This document shows, one piece after another, positions 6,558 through 28,329 of a DNA stretch of 64,000 bases. This stretch comes from Streptacidiphilus albus JL83 (lineage in GTDB: Bacteria; Actinomycetota; Actinomycetes; Streptomycetales; Streptomycetaceae). Position 1 is the stretch's first letter. The number at the start of each line of letters is the position of its first letter. Under the pieces are notes generated by a model. It saw only the letters and a program-made list of their open reading frames with translations, made no database searches and was not told the DNA's origin. The stretch is from the NCBI RefSeq assembly GCF_000744705.1, contig NZ_JQML01000001.1, positions 5,714,017 to 5,778,016 of the forward strand. Reading direction: 5' to 3'. The position numbers and the translations under genes were made by a program.

Positions 6558-6577
6558 TCCCACCCGCGCAGGCGTCG

Positions 6578-6620: not shown

Positions 6621-6715
6621 TTTCCGGGAACGGCTGGTCCCGGGACCTCTGGTCAACGACGCTACCGGGGGGTAGCTTCCAGAGCGAGGACAGGAATCCG
6701 CCGAGGAGAGCCGCC

Positions 6716-7507: not shown

Positions 7508-7515
7508 CGGTCGTC

Positions 7516-7806
7516 CTACCGGAACGGGCGATCGAAGCCGGTGGGGTCGTACGGCGCGTACTCGGTGCCGCCGTCGGAGGACTCCGGCGCCGGCTCCGAC
7601 GCCCGCTTCTCCCCGCCCCGGTCGCCCGCCATCCGGTACAGCGCGGCGGCCAGCCCGCCGGCCCCCAGGGCGATCAGCACCAGCGGGATCACCAACTGCC
7701 CGTCCACGCGCACCATGCCCGCCGACTCCAGCAGGTAGAGCACCGCGACGGCGACGAAGGCCACCCCGGTGACCAGCGAGAACAGATCGAGTCGATGGCG
7801 CCTCAC
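7516..7806 (-). CDS. small two-helix membrane protein, co-transcribed with the PspC protein
   Basis: A 96-residue protein with two hydrophobic helices (about 8-27 and 38-59) and a charged, proline-containing cytoplasmic tail ending YDPTGFDRPFR. The GTG start at 7806-7804 overlaps the TGA stop of the PspC gene (GTGA), so the two are translationally coupled. I do not recognise a functional family. Its position suggests it works with the PspC/LiaF-like membrane protein, perhaps as an accessory of the envelope-stress module. It ends 8 bases from the convergent aldolase gene with no room for a separate terminator. Confidence 0.75.
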   Translation of the reverse strand: MRRHRLDLFSLVTGVAFVAVAVLYLLESAGMVRVDGQLVIPLVLIALGAGGLAAALYRMAGDRGGEKRASEPAPESSDGGTEYAPYDPTGFDRPFR

Positions 7807-9179: not shown

Positions 9180-9332
9180 ACCGCCATCCTCCGGCCCGCC
9201 CGCCGCTGCGCCCATCCGTCATCTCCCTGGTCCGACCCTGAGGCCAACCCTGACACAGCTCGGGGCAACGACAGGGAAGGTTCCTGCGCAACCCTGATGC
9301 CCGGCACACCCCGACCGTGTGACGATCAGGGG

Positions 9333-11422: not shown

Positions 11423-11460
11423 CCGACCTGGATCCGCCGGCTCCGGGTTCAGCTCCGGGT

Positions 11461-12048
11461 TCAGCTCCGGTCGCCGGTCCGGGCACCGTGCCCGCCGAGG
11501 TACTCCGACGGGACCGCGTCGGTCAGCCAGACGCCGTTGGCACTGACCCGGAACCGGTGGCCCGCGGCGGCCATCCGGGCCGCGTCCACCACCAGCACCA
11601 CCGGGCGACCCCGGCGGGCGCCGACCCGGCCGGCCGTCTCCCGGTCGGGGGAGAGGTGCACGGCGTGCCGCTGCATCGGGCGCAGCCCCTCGCGGCGGAT
11701 GGCGGCCAGCGCGCCGGGGTGGGTGCCGTGGAACAGCACGGCGGGCGGTTCGGCCTCGGCGTAGCCCAGCTCCACCTGGACGCTGTGGCCCTGGCTGGCC
11801 CGGATCCGGGTGCCGGTGGCGTCGAAGGCGAAGCGCTGCTTGTCGTTGTCGGCCACCACGCGGTCCAGCCGGTCCCGGGTCATCGGCCGCCGGTGCGCGG
11901 CCAGCGCCGCCAGCAGTTCGTCGACGGCGACCCAGCCGCCCGGGTCGAGGGTGAGGCCGATCCGGTCGGGTTCGTGCCGGAGCACCAGGGAGAGGAAACG
12001 CGACTGCTTCACCGTCTGTGCGGTGTCAGGGTCGTTCGAATGTGACAT
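11461..12048 (-). CDS. kptA: RNA 2'-phosphotransferase, KptA/Tpt1 family
   Basis: A 195-residue protein. Tpt1/KptA enzymes remove an internal RNA 2'-phosphate using NAD+, releasing ADP-ribose cyclic phosphate. Family marks include SRFLSLVLRHEPDRIGL with the catalytic Arg-His near the N terminus, a winged-helix DPGGWVAVDELLAAL, the VLFHGTHPGALAAI motif of the NAD-binding lobe, HAVHLSPD, and VWLTDAVPSEYL. The length is typical of bacterial members. ATG 12048 has no clear ribosome-binding site and is divergent from pcrA. Bacteria lack the tRNA-splicing route that makes 2'-phosphates in fungi, so the natural substrate is unknown. A short direct repeat (GCTCCGGGTTCA type) lies at its 3' end near 11450-11465. 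Confidence 0.9.
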   Translation of the reverse strand: MSHSNDPDTAQTVKQSRFLSLVLRHEPDRIGLTLDPGGWVAVDELLAALAAHRRPMTRDRLDRVVADNDKQRFAFDATGTRIRASQGHSVQVELGYAEAEPPAVLFHGTHPGALAAIRREGLRPMQRHAVHLSPDRETAGRVGARRGRPVVLVVDAARMAAAGHRFRVSANGVWLTDAVPSEYLGGHGARTGDRS

Positions 12049-12139
12049 GTCCGATGACGGTACGGAGTCGCCGCAGGCGCTGTCTCCCGGTTTTTGCGGC
12101 GGCTGCCGGCTTTTGGAGAGGGCTGTCGGCGGGGCGGCC

Positions 12140-12145
12140 TAGACT
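12140..12145 (+). promoter_or_regulatory. -10 hexamer TAGACT before pcrA
   Basis: TAGACT ends 8 bases before the pcrA ATG, close enough for a leaderless or nearly leaderless transcript. The same hexamer in the same position precedes the CNNM/CBS gene at 41809. A short CGGAG lies between it and the ATG. Confidence 0.4.
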
Positions 12146-12153
12146 CGGAGACG

Positions 12154-14775
12154 ATGAGCAGCCTCTTTGACGACATCCCCCTGCCCGGCCTGGACGCCCC
12201 GGGTGACGCGCCGTACGACGACGCCCCCTTCGACGGCGCGCCCTTCGACGACGCCCCCTACGAGGAGGAGCTGCCCGCCGACCTGTTCGCGGGCCGTTTC
12301 GACGCGCCGCCGCCCGGCCGGGACGCGTTCCACCGCGACGGCGCCCCGCGCACCGTCGTGGATCCGGTGCAGCTGCTGGACGGGATGAACCCGCAGCAGC
12401 GCGAGGCCGTGGTGCACGCCGGGTCGCCGCTGCTGATCGTGGCCGGCGCCGGTTCGGGCAAGACCCGGGTGCTGACCCACCGGATCGCCTACCTGCTCGC
12501 GGCGCGGGGGGTGCAGCCGGGGGAGATCCTGGCCATCACCTTCACCAACAAGGCCGCCGGTGAGATGCGCGAGCGGGTCGAGGACCTGGTCGGCCCCCGG
12601 GCCAAGGCGATGTGGGTGTCCACCTTCCACAGCGCCTGCGTCCGGATCCTGCGCCGCGAGAGCAAGCTGCTGGGCTTCACCTCCAGCTTCTCGATCTACG
12701 ACTCGGCCGACTCCCAGCGGCTGATGGCGCTGTGCTGCCGGGACCTGGACCTCGACCCCAAGCAGTTCCCGCCGAAGTCCTTCACCTCGAAGGTGTCGAA
12801 CCTCAAGAACGAGCTCATCGACGAGGAGACCTACGCCGGGCAGGCCGAGAACCCGATGGAGCGGAAGCTCGCGGAGGCCTACACCCTGTACCAGCGGCGG
12901 CTGCGCGAGGCCAACGCGCTGGACTTCGACGACATCATCATGACCGCGGTGCACCTGCTGCAGGCGTTCCCGAGCGTCGCCGAGTACTACCGCCGCCGCT
13001 TCCGGCACATCCTGGTGGACGAGTACCAGGACACCAACCACGCCCAGTACACCCTGGTCCGGGAGCTGTCCGGGGGCGCGGCCGGCTCCGGGCCCAAGAT
13101 GACGGTGGACGGCGAGTACGTCAATCCGGCGGCGGCCGGGCTGGCGTCGGTGCCGCCGGCCGAGCTGTGCGTGGTCGGTGACGCGGACCAGTCGATCTAC
13201 GCCTTCCGGGGTGCGACCATCCGCAACATCCTCGACTTCGAGGAGGACTACCCGAGCGCGACCACGATCCTGCTGGAGCAGAACTACCGCTCCACCCAGA
13301 CCATCCTGAGCGCCGCCAACGCGGTGATCGAGCGCAACACCAACCGCCGGGCCAAGAACCTGTGGACGGCGGGCGCGGACGGCGCCCGGATCGTCTCCTA
13401 CGTCGCGGACGACGAGCACGGCGAGGCCCAGTTCGTCGCCGACGAGGTCGACCGGCTGTGCGACGCCGGCGACGCCCGCCCCGGCGATGTCGCGGTCTTC
13501 TACCGGACCAACGCCCAGTCCCGGGTGTTCGAAGAGGTGTTCATCCGGGTCGGGCTGCCCTACAAGGTCGTCGGCGGGGTGCGCTTCTACGAGCGCAAGG
13601 AGGTCAAGGACGTCCTGGCCTACCTGCGGGTGCTGTCCAACCCCGAGGACACGGTGCCGCTGCGGCGGATCCTCAACGTTCCCAAGCGCGGGATCGGCGA
13701 CCGTGCCGAGGCGATGATCGACGCGCTGGCCCAGCGCGAGCGGATCTCCTTCGCCGAGGCGCTGCGGCGCGTGGACGAGGCATACGGGATGGCCGCGCGC
13801 TCGGCCAACGCGGTGAAGAAGTTCAACGAGCTGCTGGCCAAGCTGCGCGGCGTGGTCGACTCGGGCGCGGGTGCGGCGGCCGTGCTGGAGGCGGTGCTGG
13901 AGGAGACCGGCTACCTGGCCGAGCTGCAGGCCTCGACCGACCCCCAGGACGAGACCCGGGTCGAGAACCTGCAGGAACTCGCGGCCGTGGCCCTGGAGTT
14001 CGAGCAGGCCGAGGCGGCGGCCGAGGCCGCGCTCGCCTCGGCCGAGGGGGAGCTCGACGCCGAGGACCCCGACGCCGAGCCGGTGGCCCGCGGCCTGGCC
14101 GGCTTCCTGGAGCGGGTGGCTCTGGTCGCCGACTCGGATCAGATTCCGGATGATGAGGGGGGCGAGAACAAGGGCGTCATCACGCTGATGACGCTGCACA
14201 CGGCCAAGGGGCTGGAGTTCCCAGTGGTCTTCCTCACCGGCATGGAGGACGGCGTCTTCCCGCACCAGCGTGCCCTCGCTCAGCCCAAGGAGCTGGAGGA
14301 GGAACGCCGACTGGCGTACGTCGGGCTGACCCGGGCCCGCGAGCGGCTCTACCTCTCCCGCGCCGTGCTGCGCTCGGCCTGGGGCCAGCCCTCGTACAAC
14401 CCGGCCTCGCGCTTCCTGGAGGAGATCCCGCCGACGCTGGTCGACGAGAAGCGCTCGGCCGCCTCGGCGGCGCCCTCGGCCAGGGGCGGCTTCGGCGGCT
14501 CCTCGCGCGGCTCGTCCAGCGGTCTGACCAGCGGCTTCGGCAGCGGCTCGGGCAAGCGGGCGGCGCCGGCCGGCTGGGGCAGGAGCGCGGGCCGGATGAA
14601 GGACCGCCCGGCGGTCTCGCTGGCCGTCGGCGACCGGGTCACCCACGACCGCTTCGGTCTCGGCACGGTCGTCGCCGTGGCCGGCCCGGCCGACGACGCC
14701 AAGGCCACCATCGACTTCGGCACCGAGGGCACCAAGCAACTGCTGCTCCGCTACGCCCCGGTGGAGAAGCTCTGA
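12154..14775 (+). CDS. pcrA: ATP-dependent DNA helicase, PcrA/UvrD type (SF1A)
   Basis: An 873-residue superfamily 1 helicase (3'-5') for repair and replication-fork clearance. Motifs in order: Walker A AGAGSGKT, ITFTNKAAGEM, STFHSACVRILRRE, Walker B VDEYQDTN, VVGDADQSIYAFRGA, LEQNYRST, VITLMTLHTAKGLEFPVVF, and YVGLTRARERLY. About 70 residues before the Walker A region are acidic and repetitive (DDAPFDGAPFDDAPYEEE). Domain 1A carries a Gly/Pro insertion (GGAAGSGPKMTVDGEYVNP) typical of actinobacterial members. The C-terminal beta domain (GDRVTHDRFGLGTVV ... LLRYAPVEKL) is the RNA-polymerase-contacting module seen in PcrA. ATG 12154 has a weak CGGAG signal and a close -10. Confidence 0.95.
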   Translation: MSSLFDDIPLPGLDAPGDAPYDDAPFDGAPFDDAPYEEELPADLFAGRFDAPPPGRDAFHRDGAPRTVVDPVQLLDGMNPQQREAVVHAGSPLLIVAGAGSGKTRVLTHRIAYLLAARGVQPGEILAITFTNKAAGEMRERVEDLVGPRAKAMWVSTFHSACVRILRRESKLLGFTSSFSIYDSADSQRLMALCCRDLDLDPKQFPPKSFTSKVSNLKNELIDEETYAGQAENPMERKLAEAYTLYQRRLREANALDFDDIIMTAVHLLQAFPSVAEYYRRRFRHILVDEYQDTNHAQYTLVRELSGGAAGSGPKMTVDGEYVNPAAAGLASVPPAELCVVGDADQSIYAFRGATIRNILDFEEDYPSATTILLEQNYRSTQTILSAANAVIERNTNRRAKNLWTAGADGARIVSYVADDEHGEAQFVADEVDRLCDAGDARPGDVAVFYRTNAQSRVFEEVFIRVGLPYKVVGGVRFYERKEVKDVLAYLRVLSNPEDTVPLRRILNVPKRGIGDRAEAMIDALAQRERISFAEALRRVDEAYGMAARSANAVKKFNELLAKLRGVVDSGAGAAAVLEAVLEETGYLAELQASTDPQDETRVENLQELAAVALEFEQAEAAAEAALASAEGELDAEDPDAEPVARGLAGFLERVALVADSDQIPDDEGGENKGVITLMTLHTAKGLEFPVVFLTGMEDGVFPHQRALAQPKELEEERRLAYVGLTRARERLYLSRAVLRSAWGQPSYNPASRFLEEIPPTLVDEKRSAASAAPSARGGFGGSSRGSSSGLTSGFGSGSGKRAAPAGWGRSAGRMKDRPAVSLAVGDRVTHDRFGLGTVVAVAGPADDAKATIDFGTEGTKQLLLRYAPVEKL

Positions 14776-14783
14776 GCCCGGCC

Positions 14784-14825
14784 GTCAGGTACTGGTCGTC
14801 CGTCAGGTACTGGCCGTCCGTCAGG
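14784..14825. repeat. 18-bp tandem repeat between pcrA and the lipase gene
   Basis: GTCAGGTACTGGTCGTCC is followed by a second copy with one difference (14802-14819) and a partial third (14820-14825). The third copy contains the minus-strand stop of the convergent lipase. No terminator hairpin was found in the gap, so this array occupies the whole convergent junction. Confidence 0.85.
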
Positions 14826-15645
14826 CGGTGAGCCGTTCGGCCGCAGTGAGTCGGACGGCGGGGGCGGGCGGGTTCGACAGGCGCTGCCGGAGCAGGGCCA
14901 GCACCTGGGGATGGACCGGCAGCGAGACATGGCCGGCCCCGGCCACCCGGATGTTCTCCACCAGCAGGTCGGGGTGGAGCAGCCGGGCGCTGCCGGGTGG
15001 CAGCACCAGCGGGTCGAAGTCGCCCCAGAAGCAGAGGAACCGGGTGTCGCAGTCCGGCGCGGGGGCGCTCAGCGTCCGCAGCGTCCGGCTGCCCGGCAGG
15101 AGTTGACGGGCCAGCGGCAGCGGATGGAGCAGCAGCGCGGTGGGGGTGCCGCTGTGCGGGGTGCCGAGGGTGGCCACCGTGTGGACGTGCTCGGATCCGC
15201 CGAGGTGCTGGACGTAGTAGCGGGCGATCAGCCCGCCGAGGCTGTGGCCGACCACCGCGACCCGCTCACCCCCGTACAGCTGCCGGGTGCTGACCACCTG
15301 TCGGCCGAAGCGGACGGCGGCGCCGTGGACGTCCGCGGTCAGCGGGCTGTAGCCGAGGGCGTGCACATGCTCCCAGCCGTGGCTGCGCAGTGAGCGCCGG
15401 AGCAGGGTGAACACGGCACGGTTCTCGAACAGGCCGTGCAGCAGCAGCACCGGGGCGTGTCCGGGCGGGGCCGTGCCGGTGCGCCGGGACGGCTGCGGCG
15501 GGTGGACGCAGGTCGGGGCCGGCGGCGGCCAGCGGCCGGGGGTGAGGCCGGTCGGCGCGAGCAGCAGTTGCCCGGCGAGGGCGGCGGTCTCCAGCCCGGC
15601 GGCGCGGACGAGGTCGACGGTTCGGCGCAGAGGGATGCAGCTCAC
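14821..15645 (-). CDS. alpha/beta-hydrolase, lipase class 2-like (possible exported triacylglycerol lipase)
   Basis: A 274-residue alpha/beta-hydrolase with oxyanion region LLLHGLFENRAVF, nucleophile elbow GHSLGG, acid in GDFDPLVLP and a C-terminal catalytic His in GAGHVSLPVHP. Family members hydrolyse lipid or ester substrates. The N terminus (PLRRTVDLVRAAGLETAALAGQLLLAPTGL) is partly hydrophobic but is not a standard signal peptide. I chose GTG 15645 because GGAG lies just upstream and the residues further upstream look noncoding; an ATG at 15720 would add 25. It is monocistronic and divergent from icmB across a 323-base gap. Confidence 0.8.
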   Translation of the reverse strand: MSCIPLRRTVDLVRAAGLETAALAGQLLLAPTGLTPGRWPPPAPTCVHPPQPSRRTGTAPPGHAPVLLLHGLFENRAVFTLLRRSLRSHGWEHVHALGYSPLTADVHGAAVRFGRQVVSTRQLYGGERVAVVGHSLGGLIARYYVQHLGGSEHVHTVATLGTPHSGTPTALLLHPLPLARQLLPGSRTLRTLSAPAPDCDTRFLCFWGDFDPLVLPPGSARLLHPDLLVENIRVAGAGHVSLPVHPQVLALLRQRLSNPPAPAVRLTAAERLTA

Positions 15646-15968
15646 GGCTCCGGACTCCCAGGTGCAGGCGGACGCAGGGGCCGGCGGACAGGTCCCGTGG
15701 TCGGACGGACAGGGGCGCACGGTGCCGGGTGAAGTGGGTGGGCACGGGTGGATTGCGGCCGGGCGGCGCCGGGTCCAACGTGCGGTGAACGTTGGTTCCG
15801 GTGTGATTCTCCCCTCGGTCGGGGCCGTGAAACGGCGCAGGGGCAGCGCGGACGATAACCTCCGCCCTAGCGATGCGAACGACTGTTAACGTCGGGCGCA
15901 CGGGGCAGAACCAGGAAACGGACGCGGAAACCCGGTCGGGGTCGTCCGCGCTGACGCAGGAGGCAACG
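15646..15968. other. 323-bp divergent intergenic region, lipase/icmB
   Basis: No gene or hairpin of note. A lower-GC patch at 15850-15895 (GACGATAACC, ACTGTTAACG) probably holds the icmB promoter. I looked for a cobalamin riboswitch because icmB is B12-dependent, but the B12-box is absent. Confidence 0.5.
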
Positions 15969-16382
15969 ATGGGTGTGTCCGGACCGATCCGTGTGGTGGT
16001 GGCCAAGCCGGGCCTGGACGGCCACGACCGCGGGGCCAAGGTGATCGCCCGGGCGCTCCGGGACGCGGGTATGGAGGTCATCTACACCGGGCTGCACCAG
16101 ACCCCGGCGCAGATCGTGGACACCGCGATCCAGGAGGACGCCGACGGCATCGGCCTGTCGATCCTCTCCGGCGCGCACATGACCCTCTGCGCCAAGGTGG
16201 TGGAGCTGCTCCGCGAGCGCGAGGCGGAGGACATCAAGCTCTTCTGCGGCGGCATCATCCCGGAGGACGACATCCCGCTGCTGAAGGAGATGGGCGTGGC
16301 GGAGATCTTCACCCCCGGGGCGTCGACCCGGGACGTGGTGGCCTGGGTGGTCGGCCATGTGGGCTCGGGCGCGGCGGCGTAG
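15969..16382 (+). CDS. icmB: cobalamin-binding small subunit of an acyl-CoA mutase (isobutyryl-CoA mutase type)
   Basis: A 137-residue B12-binding domain with the base-off/His-on motif D17-G-H19-D-R-G22, then [10 protein letters not shown] and the GGIIPEDD loop. Alone it cannot catalyse; it pairs with a separate large (substrate-binding) subunit to interconvert branched- and straight-chain acyl-CoAs such as isobutyryl- and n-butyryl-CoA. No large subunit is encoded in this window, which matches the Streptomyces pattern of icmA elsewhere on the chromosome. AGGAGG at 7 bases before ATG 15969 fixes the start. The alternative would be a subunit of another B12-dependent mutase; the sequence fits IcmB/MCM-C equally well in general. 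Confidence 0.88.
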
Positions 16383-16969: not shown

Positions 16970-18526
16970 TCACGGCCGGGTCGGCTCGGCCAGCTCGGCC
17001 AGCATCGTGGTGCGGAGCCGGAGGGTCGCGCCGAGGCGGCCGAAGGTCTCCTCCCAGGCGGGGGAGGCGTTCACCGCCAGGGCCGCCAGCTCCTCGGCCA
17101 TCTCCGGGGCGAGGCAGCGCTCGGTCACGCCGATCACCCCGCTGTGGCTCCACGGGTAGCCGCCGGCGGCGGCCACCCCGGACAGCGCCGCCAGCACGGC
17201 CCCGCCCAGTGCCGCCGGCCATGGCGCCGGGCAGGCGACCAGCAGTTGGAAGGTCTCGGCCAGACCGTGCCGCCGCACGTACCCGGCCGTCCAGCCGGCC
17301 CGCTCGGCCGGCTCCAGCACGGTCAGCAGCTTCGCCGCCGTGCCCACCGGGGCGGGCTCCCCGGCGGTCAGGGACAGCAGCGCCCGCGCCCAGTCGCGGT
17401 CGTTCTGCCGGACGGCGGCGCGGGCCCAGGCGTCCCGCAGGTCCTGCTGCCAGGTCTCGGAGACCGGCAGGGCCAGCACCGCCTCGGCCGGTCCGATCCG
17501 TTCCGCCCAGACCGCCAGCGGGGTCGCGGCGACGGTCTCGCCGAGCCAGAAGGCGCGGTCCGAGCGCCCGGTCGGCGAGGCGGCCGGGATGCCGTCCCGC
17601 TGCATCGCCGCGTCGCAGGCCGTCGGCGGATGGACGGCCAGTCTGGGCCCGTCGGCCGTCTCCGCCAGACTGACGGCGGCCAGGGCGCGCTCGGCCATTC
17701 GACCGGCCAAGGCCGAACCGGGCAGGGTGGACAGCAGCTCGGCGGCGGTGAGCCGGACGTTCTTGGCACGGTCGCTCAGCGCCGCCTCCAGAAAGGGCTC
17801 GTCGGCGGCGGACAGCCCCTCCTGGAGGGCGTCCAGGAACAGCAGCCGGTCCTCGCCCCGCTCGCTGCTCCAGCTCCCCTGCAGCAGCTCCAGGGCGGCG
17901 GCGGGGTCGTGCCGGCGCAGCTGGGTGAGGTGGGTGACCCGCTCCGCGAACAGGCCCTCCTGCCAGAGCACGAAGTCCGGTGCGGTGGCGGTGCGGCCGG
18001 GGACGGGCGTTCGCAGCACGAAGCGCCAGTCCTGGTTCTGTTCGGCGAGCCAGCGGCCCAGGGGCCCGGCCAGCACGACCGCGTCGCTCCGCAGCTCGCT
18101 CCGGGAGCGGGCCGCGTCCAGCAGCGCCGGGACCAGTGCGGCGGGGCAGCGGTAGCCGTGGGTGCGGGCGGCGGCCAGCCACTGGGGGAGCAGTTCGTTG
18201 AGGTTGGCGAGGTTGCCGCCGCCCGTGCCGCCCGAACCGCCGTCCCGGGTCGGCAGCAGCAGGGCGAGCCGGACCCGGGCGGCGTCGGACAGCTCCGGCC
18301 GGGAGTCCGGACCGGGGCCCGGCGGAGCGGCGGCGGCCGGGCCGGGCCGGAGCCCGGCCCGGCGGGCCCCGGCCTCCAGCGCCGCCCGGTCGAGCAGGTC
18401 GGGGGGCGCGGGCAGCGGGCGCCGGTCGGTGCCGAGCAGGGCGGCGGTGACCAGGTCGGCCCAGCCCACCGTGGCTGCCGGGGCCACCCGGGCGTCCGGG
18501 GCGATCGGGTGCGGGGCTGTGGTCAT
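16970..18526 (-). CDS. DUF5691 family protein (helical-repeat-like), partner of the SWIM/MoxR/VWA island
   Basis: A 518-residue protein recognised by the N-terminal DUF5691 pattern WADLVTAALLGTDRRPLP. The rest is Ala/Leu-rich helical sequence with recurring units such as AAALELLQGSWSSERGEDRLLFLDALQEGL and AERALAAVSLAETAD, suggesting HEAT/armadillo-like repeats. No catalytic motif, signal or membrane helix is seen. Its ATG overlaps the SWIM gene's stop (ATGA), so the two are coupled and probably made in fixed ratio. No biochemical role is established for DUF5691 that I know of. As a scaffold it could deliver substrates to the divergent MoxR ATPase and VWA protein. Confidence 0.8.
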   Translation of the reverse strand: MTTAPHPIAPDARVAPAATVGWADLVTAALLGTDRRPLPAPPDLLDRAALEAGARRAGLRPGPAAAAPPGPGPDSRPELSDAARVRLALLLPTRDGGSGGTGGGNLANLNELLPQWLAAARTHGYRCPAALVPALLDAARSRSELRSDAVVLAGPLGRWLAEQNQDWRFVLRTPVPGRTATAPDFVLWQEGLFAERVTHLTQLRRHDPAAALELLQGSWSSERGEDRLLFLDALQEGLSAADEPFLEAALSDRAKNVRLTAAELLSTLPGSALAGRMAERALAAVSLAETADGPRLAVHPPTACDAAMQRDGIPAASPTGRSDRAFWLGETVAATPLAVWAERIGPAEAVLALPVSETWQQDLRDAWARAAVRQNDRDWARALLSLTAGEPAPVGTAAKLLTVLEPAERAGWTAGYVRRHGLAETFQLLVACPAPWPAALGGAVLAALSGVAAAGGYPWSHSGVIGVTERCLAPEMAEELAALAVNASPAWEETFGRLGATLRLRTTMLAELAEPTRP

Positions 18527-19962
18527 GCGGTGACCCCCAGGATGCGGGTGCGGGTGGCGTCGGTGCCGGCGTCGGCGTCGGCGGCCTCGGGGGCGTCGGC
18601 GTACCAGGCGGTGATCGGGGTGAAGCCGCGGTGCCCGCATTCGCCGAAGAGCGTCAACGGACGGCCGGCGGAGACGGCGGCGAGCTTCCACAGCCCGTGG
18701 ACGGGGGTGCTGCGTCGGTCCACCGGTATCGACAGCGGGACCGGTCCGCTGTGGTCGGCGAGGCTCCAGCCCAGCGGTCCCGGCACCGGTACGACCCGGT
18801 CCAGGACGACCGGCCAGGACTCCAGCCAGGGATCGTCGCCGAGGGCCCGGCCGTAGGCGTCCAGTGCGTCGTCCAGGCTCACCCCGGCCGGGACGGCCTC
18901 CGCCGGGTCGGGTGTCCGGGGCGCGGCGAAGCGGGTGCCCAGGGCGGCCCGCAGCGGCCGGGCGCCGGGGTGGAACGCCAGTTCGGCCTCGATCAGGAGG
19001 CCGGTGGGGAGGGCCAGTTCGGGGGCGACCCCGGGACGGCCGAAGGAGAGCAGCAGGGCGGAGCGCCCGCTGTCCCGGCCACGCAGCCAGATCCGACGGG
19101 TCGTCAACCGCTCGTCGGCGGCCTCGCTGCTGCCGAGTACCAGCCAGTGGTCGCGGACCAGTGACCCGCGCAGCAGCTCGGCGGTGTCGACGGTGAAGCC
19201 GACGCGGGCGCGGACCGTCGCCGCCAGCGGCTCGGGCAGGGTGTCGACCCGCCGGTAGCCGGCGGCCAACAGGTGCAGCAGGCCGTACTCCTCCAGCAGC
19301 CGGGACGGCCATCCTGGACCGGACGCGGGGACCGCGCCGAGCTCCCGGGCCCGCGCGGCCAGCCCCGGGGCCTGGGCGTCGACCATCCGGGCGGCGACCT
19401 CCCCCCAGCCGGCGGCGCCCTGGGCGGGCGCGTCGGCCAGCCCCGACCGCAGCTGGTCGGCCAGCCGGTCCTCCAGCTCGGCCGCCCCGGCGGCCACCCG
19501 GGCGGACCGGCGGGCCAGCCGCCGGTCCGCGGCGAGCCGGGCAGCCCGTTCGGCGGCGCCGTCCTCCGTTCCGTCCGTGTCCGTTCCGTCCGCGTCCGTG
19601 TCGGCGGTGGCCCGGGCCGTCTGTTGCCGGGCGCGCAGGCCGCGGGCGTTCAGCCAGTCCCGGGCCCAGTCCGGGGCCGCCGTCGCACCGGTGGTGTGTG
19701 CGGACCAGAGCAGCAGCAGTCCGAGGGCGTGCTTGCAGGGGAACTTCCGGCTGGGGCAACTGCACTGGTAGGCCGGGCCGCTGAGATCGACGACGGTCCG
19801 GTACGGGCTGCCGCCGCTGCCCTGGCACTGGCCCCACAGGGCGGCGTCGTCCGAGCCGGTGACCGACCACGGCGCGGGGTGCGAGAGTTTGGTCGCCGCC
19901 TTGCGTGACGAGGCGTCAGGGGCGAGCGAGAGAACGTGTTCGGGTGTCCAGCGATCCTCCAT
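18523..19962 (-). CDS. SWIM zinc-finger protein
   Basis: A 479-residue protein with a SWIM zinc finger near the N terminus: C67-x-C69-x6-C76-x-H78 (in YQCSCPSRKFPCKHALGL). SWIM fingers bind zinc and contact DNA or proteins. The region after it is an Arg/Ala-rich linker with Asp-Gly-Thr repeats (DTDADGTDTDGTED), followed by a long mixed domain of unknown fold with many Trp residues. The start at ATG 19962 lacks a Shine-Dalgarno sequence; an earlier in-frame start lies at 20022. It is translationally coupled to DUF5691 and divergent from the MoxR operon, and the 238-base gap between them probably holds both promoters. No enzymatic motif is visible. Confidence 0.85.
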   Translation of the reverse strand: MEDRWTPEHVLSLAPDASSRKAATKLSHPAPWSVTGSDDAALWGQCQGSGGSPYRTVVDLSGPAYQCSCPSRKFPCKHALGLLLLWSAHTTGATAAPDWARDWLNARGLRARQQTARATADTDADGTDTDGTEDGAAERAARLAADRRLARRSARVAAGAAELEDRLADQLRSGLADAPAQGAAGWGEVAARMVDAQAPGLAARARELGAVPASGPGWPSRLLEEYGLLHLLAAGYRRVDTLPEPLAATVRARVGFTVDTAELLRGSLVRDHWLVLGSSEAADERLTTRRIWLRGRDSGRSALLLSFGRPGVAPELALPTGLLIEAELAFHPGARPLRAALGTRFAAPRTPDPAEAVPAGVSLDDALDAYGRALGDDPWLESWPVVLDRVVPVPGPLGWSLADHSGPVPLSIPVDRRSTPVHGLWKLAAVSAGRPLTLFGECGHRGFTPITAWYADAPEAADADAGTDATRTRILGVTA

Positions 19963-20200
19963 GGCAACGACGGTAGACGCCGGGTCCGACAATTCCTTCG
20001 GGCTGACGTTCCCGCAGGCCACAGCCGTCCGGCGGAGGGCCGGGGGCGATTGTCAGTGGTGCGGTGCAGAGTGGTTCTCGCAGTCGACGGGATGCGCCGG
20101 CGTCCCCTCGGCTGCCCGATTCCGACGTTGAGTCCATCCGTCTGTCGCTCGTTCTTCCTTACTGGGACTGCCCGTTCGTCCGATCGCCCTGGGGGTTGCC
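19963..20200. promoter_or_regulatory. shared divergent control region of the SWIM/DUF5691 and MoxR/DUF5682/VWA operons
   Basis: 238 noncoding bases between two divergent coupled operons. The stretch has patches of lower GC (ACAATTCC near 19988 and CGATTGTCAG near 20047); GACAAT and ATTGTC there form a loose inverted repeat. I could not place -10/-35 boxes with confidence. Confidence 0.45.
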
Positions 20201-21361
20201 ATGACCACGTCCACTGCCACGTCCACTGCCGCGTCCACTGCCGACGGCGGCACCGCCGCCGCAGGCGGGACCGCTGCGGCCGAGACGCTCCGGCCGCACG
20301 CGGAGACCGCCTACGCCGCCGAACTCGCGGCGCTGGCCGCCGCCGACGACCGGCCCCGACCGGCGCGCTGGCTGCTGTCGCCCTGGGCGGTGGCCACCTA
20401 CCTGCTCGGCGGCACCCTTCCCGACGGGACGGTGATCACGCCCAAGTACGTCGGCCCGCGCCGGGTGGTCGAGGTCGCCGTCACCACCCTCGCCACCGAC
20501 CGCGCCCTGCTGCTGCTGGGCGTGCCCGGCACCGCCAAGACGTGGGTCTCCGAGCACCTGGCCGCCGCCGTCAGCGGCGACTCCACCCTGCTGGTCCAGG
20601 GCACCGCCGGGACGCCCGAGGAGGCCGTCCGCTACGGCTGGAACTACGCCCGGCTGCTGGCCGAGGGGCCGAGCCGGGCGGCGCTGGTGCCCAGCCCGGT
20701 GATGCGGGCCATGGCCGGGGGGATGACCGCCCGGGTCGAGGAGCTGACCCGGCTCCCCGCCGACGTCCAGGACTCGCTGATCACCATCCTGTCGGAGAAG
20801 ACCCTGCCGATACCCGAGCTGGGGGAGGAGGTCCAGGCCGTCCGCGGCTTCAACCTGATCGCCACCGCCAACGACCGGGACCGGGGCGTCAACGAGCTCT
20901 CCAGCGCGCTGCGCCGGCGCTTCAACACCGTGGTGCTGCCGCTGCCGGCCTCGTTGGAGGACGAGGTCGAGATCGTCGCCCGCCGGGTCGGCGAGCTCGG
21001 CCGCTCGCTGGAGCTTCCGGCGGTGCCCAGCGGTTCCGCCGAGATCCGACGGGTCGTCACCGTCTTCCGCGAGCTCCGGGACGGGGTCACCACCGACGGC
21101 CGGACCAAGGTCAAATCCCCCACGGGGAGCCTGTCCACGGCCGAGGCCATCTCCGTGGTCACCAGCGGCCTGGCCCTGGCCGCGCACTTCGGCGACGGCG
21201 TGCTGCGCCCCGGCGACATCGCCTCCGGGCTGCTCGGCGCGGTCGTCCGCGACCCCTCCACCGACCGGCTGGTCTGGCACGAGTACCTGGAGAGCGTGGT
21301 CCGCGAGCGCGAGGACTGGAAGGACTTCTACCGCGGCTGCCGCGATGCCGAGCAGCGCTGA
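20201..21361 (+). CDS. MoxR-type AAA+ ATPase
   Basis: A 386-residue AAA+ protein. Walker A is G107-VPGTAK-T114, the Walker B-like segment VEELTRLPADVQDSLITILSE corresponds to the MoxR pattern, sensor 1 is NLIATANDRD, and the arginine-finger region is SSALRRRFNTV. A flexible Ser/Thr/Ala-rich N terminus of about 30 residues precedes the core. MoxR ATPases remodel or activate partner proteins and act with VWA proteins as chaperone pairs; the VWA protein is encoded two genes downstream. ATG 20201 has only a weak CTGGGGG signal. The next gene starts within about 30 bases, so the three form one operon. Confidence 0.92.
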   Translation: MTTSTATSTAASTADGGTAAAGGTAAAETLRPHAETAYAAELAALAAADDRPRPARWLLSPWAVATYLLGGTLPDGTVITPKYVGPRRVVEVAVTTLATDRALLLLGVPGTAKTWVSEHLAAAVSGDSTLLVQGTAGTPEEAVRYGWNYARLLAEGPSRAALVPSPVMRAMAGGMTARVEELTRLPADVQDSLITILSEKTLPIPELGEEVQAVRGFNLIATANDRDRGVNELSSALRRRFNTVVLPLPASLEDEVEIVARRVGELGRSLELPAVPSGSAEIRRVVTVFRELRDGVTTDGRTKVKSPTGSLSTAEAISVVTSGLALAAHFGDGVLRPGDIASGLLGAVVRDPSTDRLVWHEYLESVVREREDWKDFYRGCRDAEQR

Positions 21362-21390
21362 CCAGGGTGGGAGGAGTGGAGGAGACCGCG

Positions 21391-23748
21391 TTGACCAGTC
21401 AACAGGAGACCGTTAGCCGGAACACCGATGGCCAGGACGCCGAGGGCGTCGTGCTCCTGGGGGTGCGTCACCACGGCCCGGGATCGGCCCGGGCGGTGGC
21501 CGCCGCACTGCGGCAGTACAGCCCCGACGCGGTGCTGATCGAGGGTCCGCCGGAGGCCGACGCGCTGCTGTCCTTCGCCGCCGAGAAGGGCATGGAGCCG
21601 CCGGTCGCGCTGTTCGCCCATGTCGCCGGGGAGCCCGGGCGCGCGGCCTTCTGGCCCTACGCCGCTTTCTCGCCCGAGTGGGTGGCCCTGCGCCATGCCC
21701 TGGACCACGAGGTGCCGGTCCACTTCATCGACCTGCCGGCCGCGCACAGCCTCGCCCTCGACCAGCCGGACCAGCCCGACCAGCCGGATCGACCGGACCA
21801 GCCGGAAGCCGAGTCGCGGCCGATCGACCGGAACGACCGGACCGACCGGATCGACCCGATCGCCGAACTCGCCCGCGCCGCCGGCCGCGAGGACGCCGAC
21901 CAGTGGTGGGAGGACGTGGTCGAACACCGGACGCCGGAGGCCGGCGCGGACGCGCTGGCACCGTTCCGGGCACTCGCCAAGGCCATGGCCGAGCTGCGGA
22001 CCGACGCCGCGGTCGGCCGCGACGCGCTCCGCGAGGCCCATATGCGACGGCAGTTGCGCGCCGCCCGCCGGGCCGGCCACCGCCGGATCGCCGTCGTCTG
22101 CGGCGCCTGGCACGTTCCCGCGCTCGCCGGGAGGCACTCCGCCGCTGCTGACAACGGACTGCTCAAGGGTTTGCCCAAGGCCAAGGTGGAGTTCACCTGG
22201 GTGCCCTGGACCCATCGTCGGCTCGCCCGGTCCTCCGGGTACGGCGCCGGCATCGCCTCACCCGGCTGGTACCGGCACCTCTTCGAGAGCCGGGACCACC
22301 TGATGGAGCGTTGGCTCACCGGCGTCGCCGCACTGCTGCGGGGCGAGGACCACCCGGTCTCCTCGGCCCATGTGATCGAGGCGGTCCGGCTGGCCGAGAC
22401 GCTGGCCCTGGTCCGCGGTCGTCCGCTGCCCGGCCTGGCCGAGGCCACCGACGCGGTCCGGGCCGTCCTCTGCGAGGGCTCCGACGTGCCGCTGGCGCTC
22501 ATCCACGACCGGATGGTCGTCGGCGACGTCCTCGGCGCGGTCCCGGACGGCGCCCCGGTGGTCCCGCTGCAGCGCGATCTGACGGCGCGGCAGCGGAGCC
22601 TCCGGCTGCGGCCCGAGGCGGTCGAGCGCGAGCTCGACCTGGACCTGCGCAAGGACACCGACGCGGCCCGCAGCCGCCTGCTGCACCGGCTGCGGCTGCT
22701 GGACATCGGCTGGGGGACGCCGGTGGACTCGCGCACCGCCTCCACCGGCACCTTCCGCGAGAGCTGGCGGCTGTCCTGGGAACCGGAGCTCGCCGTGGCC
22801 GTCGCCGAGGCCGGGATCTGGGGGACGACCGTGGAGACGGCGGCCGGCGCCCGGGTGGCCGACCGTGCCACCGGGGCGGCCTCCCTCGGGGAGGTCACCG
22901 CGCTCGCCGAGGACTGCCTGCTGGCCGACCTCCCGGACGCGCTGGCCACCGTGCTCCGGGCGCTCGCCGACCGGGCCGCCCTGGACGCCGATGTGGCCCA
23001 CCTCGCCGAGGCGCTGCCCGCCCTGGTCCGCACCCTGCGCTACGGCGATGTCCGCGGCACCGACGGGACCGCCCTGCGTCGGCTGGCCGAGGGCCTGGCC
23101 GTGCGGATCTGCGTCGGCCTGCCCTCGGCCTGCGCCAACCTCGACGCCGACGGCGCGCGGGCGATGGCCGGCCACGTCGCGTCCACCCACACCGCCCTCG
23201 CCCTGCTCGCCGCGGCCCCGGCGGATCCGATCTCCGCCCGCTGGTCGGCGACCCTGGCGGTGCTCGCCCGGCGGGAGACCGTCCCCGGGCTGCTCCGGGG
23301 CCGGGCGGCGCGGCTGCTGCTGGACGACAGCCGCTGGGACCCCGCCGAGGCGGCCCGGCAGATGGGCCTCGCCCTGTCCAGGGCGAGCGAGCCGGCGGAC
23401 GCGGCCGGCTGGATCGAGGGCTTCCTGTCCGGCGGCGGGATGCTGCTGGTCCACGACACCCGGCTGCTCGGCCTGGTCGACGACTGGATCACCGCCGTGC
23501 CCGCGGCCGTGTTCCCGGAGGTGCTGCCGCTGCTGCGGCGGACCTTCTCCGGCTTCGAGGGACCGGTGCGGCGCACCATCGGCGAGCGGATCCGCGCCGA
23601 CGGCGGCCGACCGGGCGCCGCCGGCCCGGCCGACCCCGACGAGGCCGTCGACCGCCCCGGGTTCGCCGCTGCGTCCGACCGCCCCCGCGCCGCCACCGCC
23701 CGCGCCCGCGCGGCACTCCTGCTGGGACTGACGGAGGATCACCGATGA
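21391..23748 (+). CDS. DUF5682 family protein with a predicted TraB/Tiki-like N-terminal domain
   Basis: A 785-residue protein. The first 250 residues read like the TraB/PrgY-Tiki-EreA superfamily: a strand ending GVRHHGPGS (H27, H28), a helix, then SPDAVLIEGPPE (E51, E55), the strand EVPVHFIDLP, and RIAVVCGAWHVPAL (H241). In Tiki and EreA the equivalent His and Glu residues bind metal or act in hydrolysis. An acidic Pro-Asp-Gln repeat interrupts this domain at about 126-142. The remaining 530 residues are helical and unrecognised. The start is uncertain: TTG 21391 has GGAGGAG 7 bases upstream; in-frame GTGs at 21367 and 21376 are alternatives. Its stop overlaps the VWA start. The TraB/Tiki assignment is my own motif reading. 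Confidence 0.8.
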   Translation: MTSQQETVSRNTDGQDAEGVVLLGVRHHGPGSARAVAAALRQYSPDAVLIEGPPEADALLSFAAEKGMEPPVALFAHVAGEPGRAAFWPYAAFSPEWVALRHALDHEVPVHFIDLPAAHSLALDQPDQPDQPDRPDQPEAESRPIDRNDRTDRIDPIAELARAAGREDADQWWEDVVEHRTPEAGADALAPFRALAKAMAELRTDAAVGRDALREAHMRRQLRAARRAGHRRIAVVCGAWHVPALAGRHSAAADNGLLKGLPKAKVEFTWVPWTHRRLARSSGYGAGIASPGWYRHLFESRDHLMERWLTGVAALLRGEDHPVSSAHVIEAVRLAETLALVRGRPLPGLAEATDAVRAVLCEGSDVPLALIHDRMVVGDVLGAVPDGAPVVPLQRDLTARQRSLRLRPEAVERELDLDLRKDTDAARSRLLHRLRLLDIGWGTPVDSRTASTGTFRESWRLSWEPELAVAVAEAGIWGTTVETAAGARVADRATGAASLGEVTALAEDCLLADLPDALATVLRALADRAALDADVAHLAEALPALVRTLRYGDVRGTDGTALRRLAEGLAVRICVGLPSACANLDADGARAMAGHVASTHTALALLAAAPADPISARWSATLAVLARRETVPGLLRGRAARLLLDDSRWDPAEAARQMGLALSRASEPADAAGWIEGFLSGGGMLLVHDTRLLGLVDDWITAVPAAVFPEVLPLLRRTFSGFEGPVRRTIGERIRADGGRPGAAGPADPDEAVDRPGFAAASDRPRAATARARAALLLGLTEDHR

Positions 23749-24947
23749 CGTCCACAACCGACCCTGACGCCCGGCCGACCGCCGAGAGCGACGACGAACG
23801 GCTGCGCCGCTGGCGGCTGGTGCTCGGCGGCGAGGCGGACGGCACCGGCTGTCGGCTCGCCGGGCGGGACGCCGCGATGGACCGGGCGCTGGCCGCCCTG
23901 TACCGGGGCGGGGGCGCCGGCCGGCCGGAGCGCGGCCGCTCGCGCACGGCCGGGCTGGGCGGCTCCGCGCCCCAGGTCGCCCGCTGGCTGGGCGACATCC
24001 GCGAGTACTTCCCGACCAGTGTCGTCCAACTGATGCAGCAGGACGCGATCGAGCGGCTCGGGCTGGCCCAACTGCTGATGGAACCGGAGATGCTGGAGGC
24101 GGTCGAACCCGACGTCCACCTGGTCGGGACGCTGCTCTCGCTGGGCCGGGCGCTGCCGGAGACCACCCGGGAGACCGCCCGTGCCGTCGTCCGGAAGGTC
24201 GTCGCCGACCTCGAACGCCGGATCGCCACCCGGACCCGCTCGCTGGTCGGCGGTGCGCTGGACCGCAGCGCCCGGGTCAACCGGCCGCGCCACCGGGACA
24301 TCGACTGGGACCGCACCATCCGCGCCAACCTGAAGAACTACATCGAGCCGGAGGGCGCGGACGGCCGGGGCACGGTGGTGCCGGAGCGGCTGGTGGGCTA
24401 CGCCCGGGCCTCGACCGCGGTCACCAAGGAGGTCATTCTCTGCATCGACCAGTCCGGCTCGATGGCGGCCTCGGTGGTGCACTCCTCGGTCTTCGGCGCG
24501 GTGCTGGCCTCGATGAACTCGCTGCGCACCCGGCTGGTGGCCTTCGACACCGCGGTGGTCGACCTCACCGACCAGCTGTCCGACCCGGTTGACGTGCTCT
24601 TCGGCGTCCAACTGGGCGGCGGCACCGACATCAACCGGGCGCTGGCCTACTGCCAGTCCCGGATCACCCGGCCCGCCGACACCGTCGTGGTGCTGATCAG
24701 CGACCTCTACGAGGGCGGGATCCGGGACGGGATGCTGAAGCGGGTCGCCGCGATGAAGGCCGCCGGGGTGCAGTTCATCGCCCTGCTGGCACTGTCCGAC
24801 GAGGGTGCGCCGGCCTACGACCGGGGGCACGCCGCCGCGCTCGCGGCGCTCGGCGCCCCGGCCTTCGCCTGCACGCCGGACCTGTTCCCCGAGATCATGG
24901 CCGCGGCGATACAGAAGCTGCCGCTACCGCTCCCGGAAACCGGCTGA
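23745..24947 (+). CDS. von Willebrand factor A (VWA) domain protein, MoxR partner
   Basis: A 400-residue protein whose C-terminal half is a VWA domain with an intact metal-ion adhesion site: D235-Q-S237-G-S239, T294 in GGGTDIN, and D320 in ISDLYEGG. The N-terminal half is helical and charged (DERLRRWRLVLGG ... QVARWLGDIREYFPTSVVQLMQQDAIERLGL), typical of MoxR-associated cytosolic VWA proteins. No signal peptide is present. ATG 23745 overlaps the DUF5682 stop (ATGA). VWA proteins of this kind present substrates to MoxR ATPases; within this island it is the expected adaptor between the ATPase and DUF5682, DUF5691 or the SWIM protein. Confidence 0.92.
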   Translation: MTSTTDPDARPTAESDDERLRRWRLVLGGEADGTGCRLAGRDAAMDRALAALYRGGGAGRPERGRSRTAGLGGSAPQVARWLGDIREYFPTSVVQLMQQDAIERLGLAQLLMEPEMLEAVEPDVHLVGTLLSLGRALPETTRETARAVVRKVVADLERRIATRTRSLVGGALDRSARVNRPRHRDIDWDRTIRANLKNYIEPEGADGRGTVVPERLVGYARASTAVTKEVILCIDQSGSMAASVVHSSVFGAVLASMNSLRTRLVAFDTAVVDLTDQLSDPVDVLFGVQLGGGTDINRALAYCQSRITRPADTVVVLISDLYEGGIRDGMLKRVAAMKAAGVQFIALLALSDEGAPAYDRGHAAALAALGAPAFACTPDLFPEIMAAAIQKLPLPLPETG

Positions 24948-26254: not shown

Positions 26255-27427
26255 GTGGACCTGTTCGAATACCAGGCGAGGGACATCTTCGCCAAGCACG
26301 GTGTGCCGGTGCTGGGTGGTGCAGTTATCGAGACGGCCGAAGAGGCGCGTGCGATCGCTGAGGGCTGGGGCGGCCGGGCCGTCATCAAGGCGCAGGTCAA
26401 GGTCGGCGGCCGTGGCAAGGCGGGCGGCGTCAAGCTGGCCTCCGACCCGGCCGACGCCGTGGCCAAGGCCGAGGCGATCCTGGGCATGGACATCAAGGGC
26501 CACACGGTCCACAAGGTGATGCTCGCCCAGACGGCCGACATCAAGGAGGAGTACTACGTCTCCTTCCTGCTCGACCGGACCAACCGGACCTTCCTCGCCA
26601 TGGCCTCCGTCGAGGGCGGCGTGGAGATCGAGGTCGTGGCCGTCGAGAACCCCGACGCGCTGGCCAAGATCCCGGTCGACGCCAACGAGGGTGTCACCGA
26701 CGCCAAGGCCCGCGAGATCGTCGAGGCGGCCAAGTTCCCGGCCGACGTCGCCGACCAGATCGTCGAGGTCCTGAAGAGCCTGTGGAAGGTCTTCATCGCC
26801 GAGGACGCGCTCCTCGTCGAGGTGAACCCCCTGGTCAAGACCGGTGAGGGCAAGATCGTCGCGCTCGACGGCAAGGTCTCGCTGGACGAGAACGCGGACT
26901 TCCGCCAGCCCGAGCACGAGGCGCTGGTCGACCACGCCGCCGCCAACCCGCTCGAGGCTGCGGCCAAGGCCAAGAACCTCAACTACGTCAAGCTCGACGG
27001 CGAGGTCGGCATCATCGGCAACGGCGCGGGTCTCGTCATGAGCACCCTGGACGTCGTCGCCTACGCCGGCGAGAACCACGGCAACGTGAAGCCCGCCAAC
27101 TTCCTCGACATCGGCGGCGGCGCGTCCGCCGAGGTCATGGCGAACGGCCTGGAGATCATCCTGGGCGACCCGGACGTCAAGTCCGTCTTCGTCAACGTCT
27201 TCGGCGGCATCACCGCCTGTGACGAGGTCGCCAACGGCATCGTCCAGGCGCTGGCGCTGCTCGAGTCCAAGGGCGAGGCCGTGACCAAGCCCCTCGTCGT
27301 CCGGCTGGACGGCAACAACGCGGAGCTGGGTCGCAAGATCCTGTCTGACGCCAACCACCCGCTGGTGCAGCGCGTGGACACCATGGACGACGCGGCCGAC
27401 AAGGCCGCCGAGCTGGCTGCGAAGTAA
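26255..27427 (+). CDS. sucC: succinyl-CoA synthetase (ADP-forming) subunit beta
   Basis: The 390-residue beta subunit of the TCA-cycle enzyme that makes succinate and ATP from succinyl-CoA. The N terminus [19 protein letters not shown] and the ATP-grasp segment [18 protein letters not shown] are diagnostic; the C-terminal ligase domain shows [11 protein letters not shown] and [19 protein letters not shown] 26255 has AAGGA at a slightly long spacing of about 10 bases. sucD follows after 20 bases in the same operon. Codon use is extremely biased, as expected for a highly expressed gene. Confidence 0.97.
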
Positions 27428-27447
27428 GGGACGAGGACTCCACAACC

Positions 27448-28329
27448 ATGGCTATCTTCCTCACCAAGGACAGCAAGGTCATTGTCCAGGGGATGACCGG
27501 CGCCACCGGCATGAAGCACACCAAGCTCATGCTCGCTGACGGCACCAACATCGTCGGCGGCGTGAACCCGCGCAAGGCCGGCACCACGGTCGACTTCGAC
27601 GGCACCGAGGTACCGGTGTTCGGATCGGTGGCCGAGGCCATTGAGAAGACCGGCGCCGACGTCTCGGTCATCTTCGTGCCGCCGGCCTTCGCCAAGGCCG
27701 CAGTGGTCGAGGCGATCGACGCCGAGATCGGTCTCGCGGTCGTCATCACCGAGGGCATCGCGGTGCACGACTCCGCGTCCTTCTGGGCCTACGCGGGCGA
27801 GAAGGGCAACAAGACCCGGATCATCGGCCCGAACTGCCCCGGCCTGATCACCCCCGGCCAGTCCAACGCCGGCATCATCCCGGGCGACATCACCAAGCCC
27901 GGCCGCATCGGTCTCGTGTCCAAGTCCGGCACGCTGACCTACCAGATGATGTACGAGCTGCGCGACATCGGCTTCTCCTCGGCCGTCGGCATCGGTGGCG
28001 ACCCGATCATCGGCACCACCCACATCGACGCCCTCCAGGCGTTCCAGGACGACCCCGACACCGACATCATCGTGATGATCGGCGAGATCGGCGGCGACGC
28101 CGAGGAGCGTGCGGCGGCCTACATCTCCGAGCACATCACCAAGCCGGTCGTCGGCTACGTGGCGGGCTTCACCGCGCCCGAGGGCAAGACCATGGGCCAC
28201 GCCGGTGCGATCGTGTCGGGCTCCTCCGGCACCGCGCAGGCGAAGAAGGAGGCCCTGGAGGCCGCCGGCGTCAAGGTCGGCAAGACCCCGTCGGAGACCG
28301 CGCGCCTGGCCCGCGAGCTCATCGGCTGA
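27448..28329 (+). CDS. sucD: succinyl-CoA synthetase (ADP-forming) subunit alpha
   Basis: The 293-residue alpha subunit that carries the phosphohistidine. The CoA-binding fold is seen in [19 protein letters not shown], the loop [11 protein letters not shown] in the middle, and the active-site histidine H251 in [15 protein letters not shown]. The protein ends RLARELIG, the family's usual end. It is co-transcribed with sucC. The stop lies 34 bases from the convergent sigma-like gene's stop; a strong hairpin just inside that gene (28421-28456) is the likely terminator. Confidence 0.97.

Follow-up and report, generated by a model that had tools for sequence, protein, structure and literature searches.

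The 64,000-nt window analyzed here comes from Streptacidiphilus albus JL83 (contig NZ_JQML01000001.1, positions 5,714,017 to 5,778,016 of the forward strand), whose genome is a single contig of 9.9 Mb; the GC content of the window is ~73%, and the coordinates below are window positions. It carries a divergent five-gene island, in which the genes for a SWIM zinc-finger protein and a DUF5691 protein on the minus strand face those for a MoxR ATPase, a DUF5682 protein, and a VWA protein on the plus strand (Table 1). A 238-bp gap (19963–20200) separates the two arms, and ATGA overlaps are found at the DUF5691/SWIM and at the DUF5682/VWA junction. Genes, strands, overlaps, and gap had been described in a first-pass annotation and are confirmed from the sequence; all five families are recognized by Pfam, and no NCBIfam model scores over its cut-off on the five proteins. 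For DUF5682, the GTG at 21376 was taken as start, with GTG 21367 or TTG 21391 also possible—an uncertainty of at most 24 bp among these three. We consider it reasonably probable that the island encodes a five-part YehL-type MoxR/VWA remodeling machine, that this machine is coupled to a TIKI-like hydrolase, and that Streptomycetaceae use it when responding to DNA damage; hereby, complex formation, catalysis, client, and damage induction are what we infer.

Table 1. Features of the five-gene island and of its DUF5682 protein (window positions)
Feature	Position	Strand	Basis and remarks
DUF5691 protein, 518 aa	16970..18526	-	Pfam PF18944, E 2.1e-150; predicted all-helical HEAT/ARM-like solenoid
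SWIM zinc-finger protein, 479 aa	18523..19962	-	Pfam PF04434, E 9.4e-7; CxCx6CxH at residues 67-78
RecA-NDp-like promoter motif, SWIM arm	19970..19992	-	TTGTCGGAC-N8-TACCGT, 2 mismatches
RecA-NDp-like promoter motif, MoxR arm	20050..20072	+	TTGTCAGTG-N8-CAGAGT, 1 mismatch
MoxR-clade AAA+ ATPase (YehL type), 386 aa	20201..21361	+	Pfam AAA_5, E 1e-36
DUF5682 protein, ~790 aa, start codon uncertain	21376..23748	+	Pfam PF18934, E 1.5e-283
Putative TIKI/TraB-like alpha/beta domain of DUF5682, residues ~20-260	21433..22155	+	Structure matches, hhalign, motifs
Predicted C-terminal helical-repeat region of DUF5682, residues ~390-745	22543..23610	+	AF2 model, VIA-align matches to helical-repeat proteins
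VWA (CoxE-like) protein, 400 aa, intact MIDAS (DxSxS, T, D)	23745..24947	+	Pfam PF05762 (VWA_CoxE), E 2.8e-57

The five genes travel together. Among the best 80 of at least 588 DUF5682 relatives—Streptomyces, Kitasatospora, Streptacidiphilus, and the like—all five genes were detected by tblastn in 65 loci, and every open reading frame (ORF) check was passed as well in 52. The remaining 15 loci are shorter and ended by a contig end; hence, all 60 loci of at least 22 kb carry the complete set, in the layout DUF5691–SWIM facing MoxR–DUF5682–VWA. In the window, the island is flanked by pcrA and B12-binding genes (12094–16382) and by sucCD (26255–28329), and this neighborhood is kept: of the 60 loci, 59 retain the B12-binding gene, 58 pcrA, and 57 sucC, and in 56 the B12-binding gene and sucC flank the island together. 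A gene for a KptA/Tpt1-type RNA 2'-phosphotransferase (11461–12048, minus strand) adjoins pcrA in the window. The first-pass annotation had named the occurrence of DUF5682 and DUF5691 mostly without MoxR, VWA, and SWIM as a finding that would speak against a common function. Instead, DUF5691 exceeds the cut-off in 18/296 Actinomycetota genomes, and SWIM, MoxR, DUF5682, and VWA are adjacent to it in all 18. DUF5682 is present in 21 of these 296 genomes, of which 18 are of the five-gene type, one has a cut contig (G259), and two bear other types only (G204 and G124; see below). Three further DUF5691 matches below the cut-off all lie in Actinomycetota genomes without DUF5682.

Outside Streptomycetaceae, the genes are collinear in the order SWIM–DUF5691–MoxR–DUF5682–VWA. 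This holds for Rhizobium, for Deinococcus, and for nine further loci of Actinomycetota (in five of which DUF5691 was matched only over the first 146–210 profile positions). The same order is found in Methylosinus, where the gene table is incomplete and VWA is not annotated, and in Hymenobacter, where a single DUF5691 gene of 1009 aa is present and a separate SWIM gene is absent. Hence, the divergent arrangement is most simply understood as a derived inversion within Streptomycetaceae. Gene fusions tie the components further: three proteins fuse DUF5682 to VWA, and one protein bears both the SWIM and the DUF5691 Pfam match. Two more proteins (L052 and L163) possess an N-terminal half of the same size without a SWIM match, for which the full set of zinc ligands can be aligned in L163 and not in L052. 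Judged by co-occurrence, order, and fusion, the five genes are a single functional unit around the MoxR/VWA pair, as the first-pass annotation had supposed.

DUF5682 operons come in several types. Type A is the island described here. Type B has the order DUF4132–MoxR–DUF5682–VWA–SWIM and is found in Escherichia coli, in Iodobacter, in a reordered version in Allorhizobium, and at a second locus of S. albus JL83 itself. Type C consists of MoxR followed by a DUF5682–VWA fusion of ~1250 aa (L033, L035, and L170), and type D of a VWA/MoxR pair beside a highly diverged DUF5682 of ~100 bits (L039–L042). The second S. albus JL83 operon (L037; G000:C1:2854000-2873990, 4276–14657) shares the core of the island and is of the DUF4132 type, as in E. 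coli; its order is WGR–DUF4132, MoxR, DUF5682, VWA, SWIM, the DUF4132 protein bearing a WGR domain in addition. Its DUF4132 N-terminus is matched in 38/121 Streptomycetaceae genomes (E <= 1e-10, weak partial matches counted), making this locus rarer than the island.

The E. coli counterpart is yehL-yehM-yehP-yehQ, in which MoxR, DUF5682, and VWA are homologous to those of the island and stand in the same order with a SWIM gene linked. Compared with YehL and RavA, the island MoxR is by sequence most like YehL—the namesake of a MoxR subfamily—with 40% identity over 355 aligned positions and 222 bits, as opposed to only 22 bits for RavA. DUF5682 is 26% identical to YehM and VWA 36% to YehP, and the likeness of YehQ to the island SWIM protein is confined to the zinc finger. 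In contrast to the island, the yeh operon lacks DUF5691 and bears a large DUF4132 protein instead, encoded by yehI ahead of yehL; such a DUF4132 partner is absent from the island, where DUF5691 takes its place. DUF5691 as a diverged DUF4132 was considered and rejected (profile–profile probability 0.1%). The claim of an "undescribed" system thus holds in part: an operon of the same kind and a named subfamily exist in E. coli, and a functional study of yehLMPQ or the YehL branch was not found in a literature search that left most subscription papers out of reach. Within the same reach, no mention of DUF5682, of DUF5691, or of MoxR together with DUF4132 was found. The island is a new variant of the YehL-type MoxR/VWA system, to which two new leads are added here: a TIKI/TraB-like component and DNA-damage control motifs.

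In MoxR, the Walker A lysine and a Walker-B-like EE pair are kept in 110/110 sequences. This pair corresponds to residues 180–181 (20738–20743), where Walker B usually reads DE. The metal ion-dependent adhesion site (MIDAS) of VWA is conserved in its DxSxS and D320 (106/106 sequences) and in T294 (101/106), and the SWIM zinc ligands are kept in 93–94 of 97 sequences. The first-pass annotation had called DUF5691 helical, which agrees with an AlphaFold2 (AF2) model predicting an all-helical solenoid with a mean predicted local distance difference test (pLDDT) of 85.2 and a predicted template modeling score (pTM) of 0.77. Its best Foldseek matches are HEAT/ARM-type proteins, albeit weak ones (best E 0.0035, TM ~0.2).

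One of the two leads lies in the gap between the arms. The RecA-NDp motif, tTGTCRgtg-8 nt-TannnT, marks a LexA/RecA-independent damage response (PMC5656591), its promoters are activated by PafBC in mycobacteria (PMC8223512, PMC6789036), and in S. coelicolor it is reported to precede SCO6735, a gene inducible by UV (PMC5087735). Forty-eight divergent regions, those of 47 relatives and of the window, were aligned. Conservation is found mainly in two inverted blocks, TTGTCAGTGG per arm, and in a stretch rich in purines that precedes MoxR. By their sequence, the inverted blocks are the RecA-NDp (PafBC-type, LexA-independent) motif: the core is exact in 45/48 regions on the MoxR side and in 43/48 on the SWIM side. 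On the latter, the full motif is exact in 43/48 regions as well, and on the MoxR side it shows one mismatch (a CANNNT −10 element) in 42/48. Among 960 mononucleotide shuffles, an exact core did not occur and the best full match had 2 mismatches (2/960). Since the 48 regions are related, the counts should not be read as independent; more weight attaches to how the blocks contrast with the unconserved rest of the region. The exact core is also present on both sides in eight more Streptomycetaceae loci (L043–L050).

In the window itself, the MoxR-side site has an exact core and a −10 element that begins with C in place of T. On the SWIM side, 30 bp separate the motif start from the SWIM ATG—a spacing shared by 7/8 of the loci L043–L050. 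Scanning the entire window with a relaxed −10 element and one mismatch gave 2 matches, with 0.39 expected by chance. A one-mismatch site elsewhere in the window, at 30582–30604 (plus strand), is likely a chance occurrence. As for a possible activator, WYL domains are found at seven places in the S. albus JL83 genome. Two of these places, at 8.14 Mb, share a strand and are separated by 1 kb, as would be expected of a pafB–pafC pair.

The S. albus JL83 genome contains 19 exact copies of the motif (L190–L208), compared with 2 of the reversed pattern, which served as control. For each exact copy, the first downstream ORF was determined by frame composition and first in-frame start and searched against Pfam at E 1e-5. 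Seven of the 19 are repair-type genes: recA, uvrB, ruvC, dnaX, xseB, an AlkZ-like glycosylase, and a PD-(D/E)XK nuclease, with the starts of recA, uvrB, and dnaX 28–30 bp after the motif start. The others comprise one DEAD-box helicase, DinB_2, HAD, S6, DUF899, DUF6928, and MFS genes, and five ORFs without Pfam match. No repair role is known for the DUF899, DUF6928, HAD, and MFS genes. Together, the 19 copies provide a starting list for a LexA-independent damage regulon.

The DUF4132 operons show the motif as well. It is present with up to 2 mismatches in 13/18 DUF4132 upstream regions (3 exact), always 61–97 bp before the start, at a shuffle rate of 0.7%. Eight of the 10 complete type B operons with all five genes pass (L253 and L254 fail), and the second S. 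albus JL83 locus has a RecA-NDp-like site with 1 mismatch 97 bp before its first gene. The motif is also found, with 0–2 mismatches, before five DUF4132 genes without MoxR in the fetched 12.6 kb (L242, L245, L247, L248, and L249), and hence DUF4132 may be a damage-response protein in its own right.

Several observations weigh against a role in the damage response, or restrict it. The two window sites carry 1 and 2 mismatches and thus stand outside the 19 exact copies of the genome, and the window is one of 5/48 regions without an exact SWIM-side copy. The motif is absent from 5/18 type B/DUF4132 regions. Among the other Actinomycetota type A loci, 3/9 have 2-mismatch sites only and the rest have none. 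No SOS or radiation/desiccation response motif (RDRM) box was found within 350 bp upstream of the gene that we took as the first at six non-actinobacterial loci, nor in the 350 bp before E. coli yehI, yehK, and yehL. The damage motif is, hence, convincing only in Streptomycetaceae. A study on S. venezuelae LexA mentions a first search, by which conservation of the PafBC motif in that species was not suggested (PMC9380542). In E. coli, an α-proteobacterial-type GTTCN7GTTC box lies 104 bp upstream of yehR (L001), a gene outside the unit. The shuffle rate for this box is 0.7%, and it is probably due to chance.

The other lead concerns DUF5682, which the first-pass annotation had regarded as the effector. 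Its AF2 model, calculated from 49 sequences (pLDDT 72.1, pTM 0.53), shows an α/β N-domain and a C-terminus of helical repeats, with a middle part that is poorly predicted; residues ~260–430 are barely tested by the structure matches. The top match to the model in BFVD (E 0.0033, probability 1.00) bears the name "TraB family protein", and the top Foldseek match in the PDB is 7w5z_E (E 0.019, probability 0.99). The top four VIA-align matches include 8bqs_DQ, 7w5z_E, and 8b6h_DQ with Z of 9.8–10.0 and root-mean-square deviations of 5.3–6.1 over 177–192 residues (model 1–258), all three being chains from Tetrahymena complex IV. This complex holds a TraB-family subunit (PMC10060162, legend to Extended Data Fig. 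5), and the matched chain 7w5z_E/8bqs_DQ probably is this subunit. Searching the solved structures by sequence with the DUF5682 profile, YbaP, and a TraB/GumN profile gave nothing useful, and so the name of the chain is unconfirmed.

Aligning 27 DUF5682 N-domains with 8 TraB/GumN proteins by hhalign gave a score of 30.4 (E 0.0018) centered on the second GxxH block, compared with E 0.31–0.55 for the controls (reversed TraB, MoxR, VWA, and SWIM) and a best score of 18.5 for 60 column-shuffled TraB alignments. When aligned globally, the two groups coincide at the glutamate and at each of the GxxH blocks. The TIKI family is characterized by two GxxH motifs with a glutamate and an arginine between them. 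DUF5682 bears G29xxH32 H33, E56, D119, R219 E220, and G243xxH246, and its order GxxH-E-D-RE-GxxH is that of six TraB/GumN proteins (GxxH-ExD-E-RN-GxxH). Of these residues, D119, R219, E220, G243, and H246 are kept in 102/102 sequences; H32, H33, and E56, together with E101, in 101/102, the exception being an ORF called too short; and G29 in 99. The DUF5682 N-terminal domain is, hence, probably a remote relative of the TIKI/TraB/PrgY/GumN family (e.g., E. coli YbaP), with which it shares the order GxxH..E..D/E..R..GxxH, to which it shows fold-level matches of moderate score, and from which it differs by its long helical-repeat C-terminus and its MoxR/VWA partner. This likeness strengthens the assignment of DUF5682 as a putative effector.

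Alternatively, the promoter motif could be real and the likeness superficial: DUF5682 would then be a structural adaptor whose Rossmann-like domain bears GxxH motifs by chance. For this speak the modest Foldseek E-values and the likewise modest VIA-align Z near 10, the low confidence of the model, an HHsuite probability of 14.6% for DUF5682–TraB/GumN, the unconfirmed name of the PDB chain, and the lack of any match to Pfam TraB (PF01963) at E <= 0.1. Erythromycin-esterase (PF05139) was not matched by Pfam at E <= 0.1 either, and its profile, tried as another candidate, was rejected as weak (E 0.13). Some TraB-type proteins, such as TRABD, are not known to have protease activity. However, a superficial likeness would have to account for motif positions that are collinear and nearly invariant, for an hhalign score far above all shuffles, and for structure matches that are named TraB in BFVD and probably are TraB in the PDB. 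We regard it as decidedly unlikely.

How might these parts work together? In MoxR/VWA pairs, VWA captures a peptide and MoxR remodels (PMC7159879, section 8). We propose that the client, or the site of the client, would be recognized by the SWIM zinc finger together with DUF5691 as a helical scaffold. SWIM domains are readers of nucleic acids or proteins, and a solenoid like that of DUF5691 is a natural scaffold. VWA, with its intact MIDAS, would then hold a peptide of the client, and the MoxR ring, its ATPase motifs being intact, would remodel the client at the cost of ATP. As the constant third partner bears a TIKI/TraB-like domain, the client would then be processed hydrolytically, DUF5682 being most likely a metal-dependent hydrolase or protease. 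The damage-promoter motifs place the machine among repair functions in Streptomycetaceae, where it would belong to a LexA-independent (RecA-NDp, PafBC-type) regulon with one motif-bearing promoter per arm. A more specific version is a bacterial counterpart of SPRTN/Wss1–Cdc48, in which SWIM targets damaged DNA, MoxR/VWA pulls on a stuck or crosslinked protein, and DUF5682 cuts it, with induction alongside recA and uvrB; this is a long shot, and it would, if true, provide a dedicated protease for DNA–protein crosslinks or stalled complexes.

The same parts could also form an assembly chaperone like CoxD/CoxE or RavA/ViaA that matures or metallates a client enzyme, with the TraB-like domain as a non-catalytic binding module and damage control reflecting a need for the client after damage. 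The VWA protein is CoxE-like, the genes are core genes, and the MoxR–VWA pairs studied so far mostly serve assembly and metal insertion (PMC7159879, section 8), all of which fits such a chaperone. Against it, no linked client-enzyme or cofactor gene is common to the annotated stretches of Hymenobacter, Methylosinus, Rhizobium, and Deinococcus, and the metal- and catalytic-type residues of DUF5682 are nearly invariant. We regard an assembly chaperone as rather unlikely.

The first-pass annotation had also considered a defence-type system, and the combination of MoxR, vWA, and a third component is indeed the layout of the vWA-MoxR ternary conflict systems of Kaur et al. 2020 (PMC7159879), with which the island shares the ATP-driven remodeling model. 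Furthermore, in lineages other than Streptomycetaceae and E. coli, some copies of the operon are plasmid-borne and near recombinase or nuclease genes (Hymenobacter, Methylosinus), and restriction genes lie near the Iodobacter type B operon. The plasmid-borne copies of Hymenobacter, Methylosinus, Rhizobium, and Deinococcus also speak against a purely housekeeping role, but these four are on plasmids because a plasmid collection was what was searched.

Set against this is the distribution of the genes. DUF5691 is found in 242/249 Streptomycetaceae genomes, mostly with a single match per genome, and yehLMPQ is matched in 5301/5426 E. coli genomes (5162 at >=80% coverage), with 5320/5322 places being chromosomal. 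Conflict systems of the ternary kind typically show a patchy accessory distribution, whereas the island is core in Streptomycetaceae and its counterpart in E. coli; across the phylum Actinomycetota, the distribution is patchy (18/296 genomes). DUF5682 occurs on only 36/72,556 plasmid records (several of them chromosome-sized) and 1/50,697 phage records, and none of 13 pattern matches on viral contigs proved to be a relative. With PADLOC, the five proteins gave weak ATPase-type matches only (IetA against MoxR, E 0.017–0.043), and bpMoxR stayed below its cut-off on MoxR (22.3 bits versus 27). Neither VMAP or iSTAND domains nor a β-propeller family as third component were reported by Pfam over the cut-off on the five proteins—for all conflict-system families searched, an absence of match rather than a proof—and the words "SWIM" and "YehL" are absent from the main text of PMC7159879, as far as it was available. 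Core and syntenic genes, with conserved flanks in 56/60 loci, argue against phage defence. Hence, a defence system was rejected, and an anti-phage or other conflict function is very improbable.

In the literature searched, the YehL branch of MoxR ATPases has a name but no function, though it is core in both E. coli and Streptomycetaceae. The damage motif on two paralogous versions of the system, together with a putative TIKI/TraB hydrolase as constant third partner, makes this function directly testable. Should DUF5682 prove catalytic, a superfamily of putative proteases that is poorly understood and also includes an animal Wnt inhibitor would gain an AAA+-coupled member. For Streptomyces, a damage-controlled island would widen the LexA-independent damage response, the existence of which is left open in a recent paper (PMC9380542).

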